A stretch of 64,000 nt of DNA from Bacteroidota bacterium (lineage in GTDB: Bacteria > Bacteroidota > Bacteroidia > Bacteroidales > JAAUTT01), in the NCBI GenBank assembly GCA_021779665.1, contig JAJYAG010000012.1, positions 1-64,000 of the forward strand. The letters are read 5' to 3'. Below, in pieces: positions 21,539 through 31,668 of the stretch. The notes beneath the pieces were generated by a model. It was not told the DNA's origin and made no database searches. It was given only the letters and a program-made list of their open reading frames with translations. The translations under genes and the position numbers were made by a program. Within the stretch, counting starts at the first letter, position 1. Every line of letters starts with the position of its first letter.

Positions 21539-21660
21539 TAAATAAAGTTGCGTAAACGCAAGTGTTTAAAATTTGAAATTTCTCATACAAAATATTAGTA
21601 GTAGTTAGTTAGTAGTTTAATAACAAAGGCGGACCTGTGAAGCTCCGCCTTTGTTGCTTT
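21539..21660 (+). ncRNA. Candidate small RNA A (terminator hairpin 21622-21655 with loop CCTGTGAAGC)
   Basis: 12-bp stem AACAAAGGCGGA/TCCGCCTTTGTT plus T tract, in a divergent intergenic region with no protein gene to terminate; 5' boundary is a guess. Confidence 0.5.
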
Positions 21661-21900
21661 TTATAAATGCCCTTATTCCGGCGTTCCGTTAACGTCTTTT
21701 TTCAAATTTTAAGCTTTGTTAACTTAATAATGAGGTACTTTTAACTTCAACTTCTTATTAGCCGCCAATGCCTTGAATTAAACCAAATCAAATTTTAAAC
21801 TACAAGCTGGTAGGGTAAAACAGAAATTGCCTGTAATGTTGATGCCGTTGACAGGAAAAAAAAATTTAATAGAGAAATAAAAGTATTTCGTCGTAATAAA

Positions 21901-31074: not shown

Positions 31075-31190
31075 ATATTAAAACCTACTTTGAATTTTTA
31101 CGTAATATTGTACGCAAAACATTCACATAATCATACAAAATGCTTTGTTGAAGCATTAGAAAGACGAATCTGTGAAGCTTCGTCTTTTTT
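31075..31190 (+). ncRNA. Candidate small RNA B (terminator hairpin 31160-31187 with loop TCTGTGAAGC)
   Basis: 9-bp stem AAAGACGAA/TTCGTCTTT plus TTTTTT; preceding mini-hairpin ATGCTT-tgttg-AAGCAT; homologous to 31379-31482. Confidence 0.5.
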
Positions 31191-31378
31191 ATCACTTGTT
31201 TTTAGCGCCTCAACATCAAAAATTCCTTAAAAGATATGTTTTCTTTTACTCCTTGATATATGATTAGTCGTGATTGTAATTAAAAAATCCGGCAAAGTAA
31301 AAATGATTTTTATTGTGCAATTAAGCTTCCCTATTCAGGGATAACCTAGATTTACCAGGGAGTCTTTCCTTTCTAATA

Positions 31379-31482
31379 AAAAATAGAACCTATTCTGAAT
31401 TCCTACGTAGTAAGAATCACAATATTCAAACAACGCTTCTTTGAAGCAAAAAAAGACGAATCTGTGAAGCTTCGTCTTTTTT
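31379..31482 (+). ncRNA. Candidate small RNA C (terminator hairpin 31452-31479 with loop TCTGTGAAGC)
   Basis: Identical stem-loop to B; preceding mini-hairpin GCTTC-ttt-GAAGC; no ORF between the B and C terminators. Confidence 0.55.
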
Positions 31483-31668
31483 GTTATGACCCTAAAATCA
31501 AGAGTCGGCGCTTCTTATCGAAAAGAAAACCTAATTTATTACATATTAAATAAAAGAAATAAAATGAGATTTAATTAATACCAATCATTTATACACAATT
31601 AATTTATGGGAACAATTTCTATCGCTTAGCCGTTTAATATATTTAACTCAACCCAAAACTTATGTGAT

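Follow-up and report, generated by a model that had tools for sequence, protein, structure and literature searches.

A multicopy candidate small RNA family with a UAG-rich 5' arm, apparently a distant relative of FopS, in a Bacteroidales genome

In a window of 64,000 nucleotides (the whole stretch of DNA that was analysed) we find a hairpin with an upstream UAG-rich segment, copy A, which belongs to a family with at least about eight copies in this Bacteroidales genome. On balance we lean towards the view that copy A is a stand-alone sRNA gene of ~80 nt from a multicopy, divergent FopS-like family, whose UAG-rich 5' arm would interact with an RRM protein, with the 5' ends of mRNAs or with both. 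The family, its structure, its orphan position and its conservation were demonstrated in this analysis. Two covariance models define the features given below: R1, made from eight hairpins with the same loop, and R2, made from alignment A3 with 14 training copies and describing the succession of UCAUA, UAG array and terminator. Copy A is itself an R2 training sequence, so that its score is partly by construction, and its 5' end (near 21578-21583) is a guess.

21583 to 21662, + strand: copy A, predicted small RNA of ~80 nt (R2 match 21583-21661, E 6.4e-11; also matched by R1)
21583 to 21587, + strand: UCAUA box, presumed 5' end of copy A (invariant in the 14 training copies; present in 7 of the 11 independent matches listed)
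21596 to 21615, + strand: UAG/UUAG array TAGTAGTAGTTAGTTAGTAG, candidate seed or RRM-binding arm (unpaired in the fold; conserved in the genus)
21621 to 21662, + strand: intrinsic terminator with 13 bp, C.C mismatch (21634/21643), CU/AG, GUGA tetraloop and T run (from fold and covariation)
31131 to 31196, + strand: copy B, UCAUACAAAAU, terminator loop as in A, divergent member (R2 37.7 bits, E 0.015; also R1 and fold)
31426 to 31488, + strand: copy C, next to B, with both hairpins of B but neither UCAUA nor UAG, doubtful member (R2 33.7 bits, E 0.08; fold)

The lower stem of the copy A hairpin has 13 bp, with 21621-21633 paired to 21644-21656 and a T run at 21658-21662, and its fold has a z-score of -3.2, none of 200 shuffles being equally stable. 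It stands in a 574-nt divergent gap, flanked by a hybrid kinase gene on the - strand (start 21326) and the gene of a LytS-type histidine kinase on the + strand (start 21901), and has no + strand gene to terminate; an earlier note on this DNA had placed the hairpin in this gap, and both its reading of the sequence and the neighbours were confirmed. The TAG array at 21596-21615, the GNRA loop and the C.C mismatch are features absent from that note. A perfect inverted repeat TTGCGTAAACGCAA, possibly an operator, is seen at 21549-21562, ~20 nt before the point where copy A presumably begins, and a fixed spacing of such a repeat was not found in the other copies.

The 9-mer loop of this hairpin, CTGTGAAGC, was counted 41 times in the 6.9 Mb of the genome and its reversed control 18 times; eight of the 41 sites are strong terminator hairpins, namely A, B, C and one each on C28, C80, C125, C227 and C266. 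Within the window the loop returns at 31170 and 31462 on a stem different from that of copy A, and what had been described as a three-copy family with a shared loop is indeed multicopy, with its number understated. The compensatory character of the stem changes, claimed at the same time, was borne out by five pairs that are altered on both sides and by a covariation score which 0 of 500 shuffles reach. An upstream segment common to A and B had also been suggested: CATACAAAAT is identical in A (21584-21593) and B (31132-31141), whereas the ACGCAA stretches stand at unequal distances from it. Having little or no UAG array, though they carry the loop CTGTGAAGC, B, C and C266 are to be considered divergent or doubtful members. 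Where the UAG array would be expected, B and C possess an extra small hairpin (GCUU...GAAGC; 31140-31170 and 31435-31455) immediately 5' of the terminator, and its GAAGC could alternatively pair with the GCUUC of the terminator.

According to the RNAfold prediction, CTGTGAAGC folds as CU-GUGA-AG: CU pairs with AG, GUGA is left as the tetraloop, and a C.C or U.C mismatch lies underneath. The GNRA cap is generally carried on 2-4 bp above this conserved mismatch. The tetraloop is GGGA, GCGA or GAGA elsewhere, with GGGA or GCGA at this position in the sister genome G003; the closing stem also differs in other copies, and further ones carry CTGGGAAGC, CTGCGAAGC, TTCGTGAGAA and other sequences as the loop while retaining UCAUA, the UAG array and the Y.C mismatch. 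As the loop varies across copies with the GNRA pattern alone constant, it is the GNRA fold that is kept and not the sequence. This does not agree with the earlier proposal of a conserved loop as the functional part, acting by base pairing or protein binding: CTGTGAAGC is indeed identical in the eight copies of the own genome, including B, C and C266 with little or no array, but it folds as CU-GUGA-AG and the rest of the family is retained where GGGA, GCGA, GAGA or another closing stem takes its place, which makes such a function extremely improbable. As a base-pairing seed the loop was ruled out by its variation within the GNRA pattern. The more widely conserved linear element is the single-stranded 5' UAG array, upstream of the hairpin. 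The Y.C mismatch is present in most copies, including ones outside model training, and most of the GNRA terminators with a single mismatch in the DNA examined, a sample biased towards family loci, are family members.

The search with R1 turned up copies beyond the eight hairpins, and in their alignment TCATA precedes arrays of the TAGTAGTAGTTAGTTAGTAG type, while the terminators behind these arrays differ in stem and loop. With <=3 mismatches allowed, the array was located 7 times in the own genome and 11 times in G003, in most cases with a terminator directly behind it, and in the window TAGTAGTAGTTAGTTAGTAG is the sole match at this threshold, with a mean expectation of 0; each copy holds 3-11 UAG. 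In the genus R2 finds, at E<=0.01, 8 matches in the own genome (G000), 9 in G003, 3 in G004, 2 in G001 and 1 in G002. With E<=0.001 as the limit, its search of 295 genomes from the order added G272, G181 and G076 (family f73) as well as two doubtful ones, G283 and G222. The matches in G001, G002, G004 and f73 are independent of training, and they retain the UUAG array, the Y.C mismatch and mostly UCAUA. Most weak R1 matches outside the genus (G013, G022 and others) proved to be plain terminators without a UAG array.

A point against our preferred explanation is the resemblance of the TAG array to simple repeats of unrelated genomes, which a 19-mer scan of genome contigs returned together with G003 (MAG bin_228). 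The family might be a TAG-rich simple repeat or a small mobile element that ends in a hairpin by chance, as similar TAG-rich tandem repeats exist in unrelated genomes and in G003 and four of the G003 copies have ~100 bp of upstream DNA in common; we hold this to be quite improbable, given that the differences between stems are compensatory rather than of a copy-paste kind, that the terminator usually stands directly 3' of the array, and that one locus is syntenic across three species. This locus, the C197-type copy, is found in G000, G003 and G004 at ~440-454 nt from the same divergent gene, a C69-type peptidase as read by eye and not by profile search, and its other flank, also read by eye, resembles an alcohol dehydrogenase in two genomes and AnmK in the third. 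Copy A shows no synteny with G003. When the C197-type sequence was searched against plasmids, phages and viruses, no meaningful match came up.

Genomic context bears on another alternative, that these elements are orphan or 3'-UTR terminators, which merely end longer or antisense transcripts and have a preferred sequence in front of them. Some copies do follow a co-directional gene closely (C80 at 19 nt, G003 C178 at 15 nt, G181 at 8 nt) and ordinary terminators also bear GNRA caps; nevertheless, 13 of 24 copies, among them A, have their nearest upstream ORF on the opposite strand (ORFs being picked mechanically for this count), same-loop hairpins number just eight in 6.9 Mb, and UCAUA and the UAG array are superfluous for termination, all of which renders this alternative unlikely. 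The earlier reading as a small RNA family is supported, as against a common gene-end terminator; copy A has no co-directional gene upstream. A consensus -7 box is situated immediately upstream of G004 C16 and of C283 in the own genome, and copy A has a -7 box at 5/6 with short spacing; a shared promoter is not recognisable in most copies, A included (enrichment p = 0.21). As a common upstream promoter or operator, ACG/CGTAA, TTTG and TAnnTTTG were rejected, as their spacing is not common to the copies (p = 0.21). A short frame, MKKVLITLLVALTATASAQKFISKNDQISFYSHTPLEDM*, that resembles a truncated YceI-type gene start lies directly in front of copy C125 (L025 ~2110-2240, - strand).

The Rfam comparison proposed earlier was run and gave no family for copy A, and the FopS model (RF04319) does not match it up to E 10. 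Throughout the genus this model stays below the Rfam gathering score of 56 bits, the best value being 34.4 bits at a locus other than A. Across the order, 55 of the 295 genomes sampled have a FopS match at or above the cut-off; they belong to many families, a wider range than the Bacteroidaceae of its original description. Two bridging loci in the genus, G002 C362 and G001 C23, score with both R2 and FopS models, and R2 sets UCAU on UCAU, in register and with weak scores, in ~13 of 30 FopS loci. FopS starts with GUGUUUUUCAUGGUAUUAG and the C197 type with GUGUUUUUCUCAUAAAUUAGGUAGUUAG; with the R1 seed of FopS, GUGUUUUUCAUGGUAUUAGAUUUAAGGUUAA, copy A has only UCAU and UUAG in common, and the C197 type and the two bridging loci have more.

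Like FopS, the family is multicopy, short (FopS is about 65-70 nt) and mostly intergenic (PMC11697453); it has UCAU...UUAG towards the 5' end, and its single-stranded 5' arm leads into a GNRA-capped intrinsic terminator. It differs in the expanded array, against one UAG in FopS, in the Y.C mismatch, which FopS copies and both bridging loci lack, in most copies having neither the GUGUUUUUC start nor a consensus promoter (copy A has no canonical sigma-ABfr promoter), and in scores below the Rfam cut-off. GibS of Bacteroides (RF04182) has UUUUUCAUAGUAUUAG near its 5' end in the model consensus, comparable to UCAUA...UUAG here, but its model extends over 142 positions with a second stem and a second seed (R2 of GibS), and no match at cut-off occurs in the window. 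BTnc231 of Bacteroides (RF04180) shares the C-GUGA-G terminator cap and has UUUCAUAGAG near its 5' end, whereas copy A scores 18 bits with its model, against a cut-off of 80.4, and the long internal hairpin of BTnc231 is missing in the family. The architecture, the UCAU...UUAG shared near the 5' end and the pair of bridging loci set the family beside FopS and GibS, both of which bind the RRM protein RbpB, and it looks like a distant FopS relative; copy A is not filed as a FopS member because the Rfam score is not reached. We found no prior account of an sRNA with a UAG array from this phylum in the openly accessible literature.

Two RRM_1 proteins are encoded in the own genome (G000 C11:19897 and C10:16791). 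Musashi-type RRMs recognise UAG-containing motifs, which we take as a lead only. We infer that copy A is transcribed, is bound by an RRM protein and has mRNA targets; a FopS-like mode of action is at best suggested by analogy. The active part would be the single-stranded 5' arm with UCAUA and the UAG/UUAG array, the 3' part being an intrinsic terminator with the conserved pyrimidine-C mismatch under its GNRA cap. A small RRM-1 protein may bind the 5' arm, by analogy with FopS and GibS of Bacteroides, the arm may pair with mRNA 5' regions and so tune translation, and several copies may add dosage. RbpB, an RRM protein, binds FopS, which acts by base pairing and represses susC translation, with RbpB as an antagonist (PMC11697453). 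Complementary 12-nt mRNA sites were not in excess over the reversed control, which counts against our preferred explanation, as do the missing shared promoter in most copies, the FopS scores below cut-off throughout the genus and the absence of synteny of copy A in G003. The candidate complementary mRNA site ACTAACTAACTA was dropped, as it showed no enrichment against the same type of control.

CsrB and RsmY titrate CsrA. The RNAs of the family resemble such sponges, by analogy, in their repeated short protein-binding motifs, and differ in offering UAG in single-stranded RNA rather than GGA in loops, in having an RRM protein as presumed partner and in carrying one array per short RNA. The UAG repeats could likewise titrate an RRM protein with no pairing of the RNA to mRNA, a reading which we consider rather unlikely: the 3-11 UAG in each of many copies, the two RRM proteins of the genome, the lack of excess of complementary sites and the binding of RbpB to GUAGGAUA, a GUAG-containing motif (PMC12119571), are in its favour, but FopS, the nearest relative, works by base pairing with RbpB as antagonist (PMC11697453), and RRM contact with a copy A-type RNA is itself presumed.

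More speculatively, and as a tentative possibility, this may be a new multicopy RNA family in which the UAG/UUAG array is a platform for bacterial RRM proteins with Musashi- or hnRNP-like UAG recognition, a sponge or a delivery RNA, with the Y.C-mismatch GNRA terminator as a second recognition mark. Hfq-, ProQ- and CsrA-type RNA chaperones are reportedly missing from Bacteroides (PMC12119571, PMC11697453), where RRM proteins are the leading candidates for this role. Should the FopS-like explanation preferred here be right, a FopS relative with an expanded UAG array, in a lineage without detected FopS, would supply studies of RRM specificity with a natural set of ligands that is easy to test, and the family would extend FopS-like control past the lineages of its description. 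As a separate observation, three cyanobacterial genomes (L148, L150, L163; Nostoc, Komarekiella) have the 19-mer TAGTAGTTAGTTAGTAGTT conserved just ahead, by a few bases, of the start of a putative NADPH-dependent FMN reductase gene.
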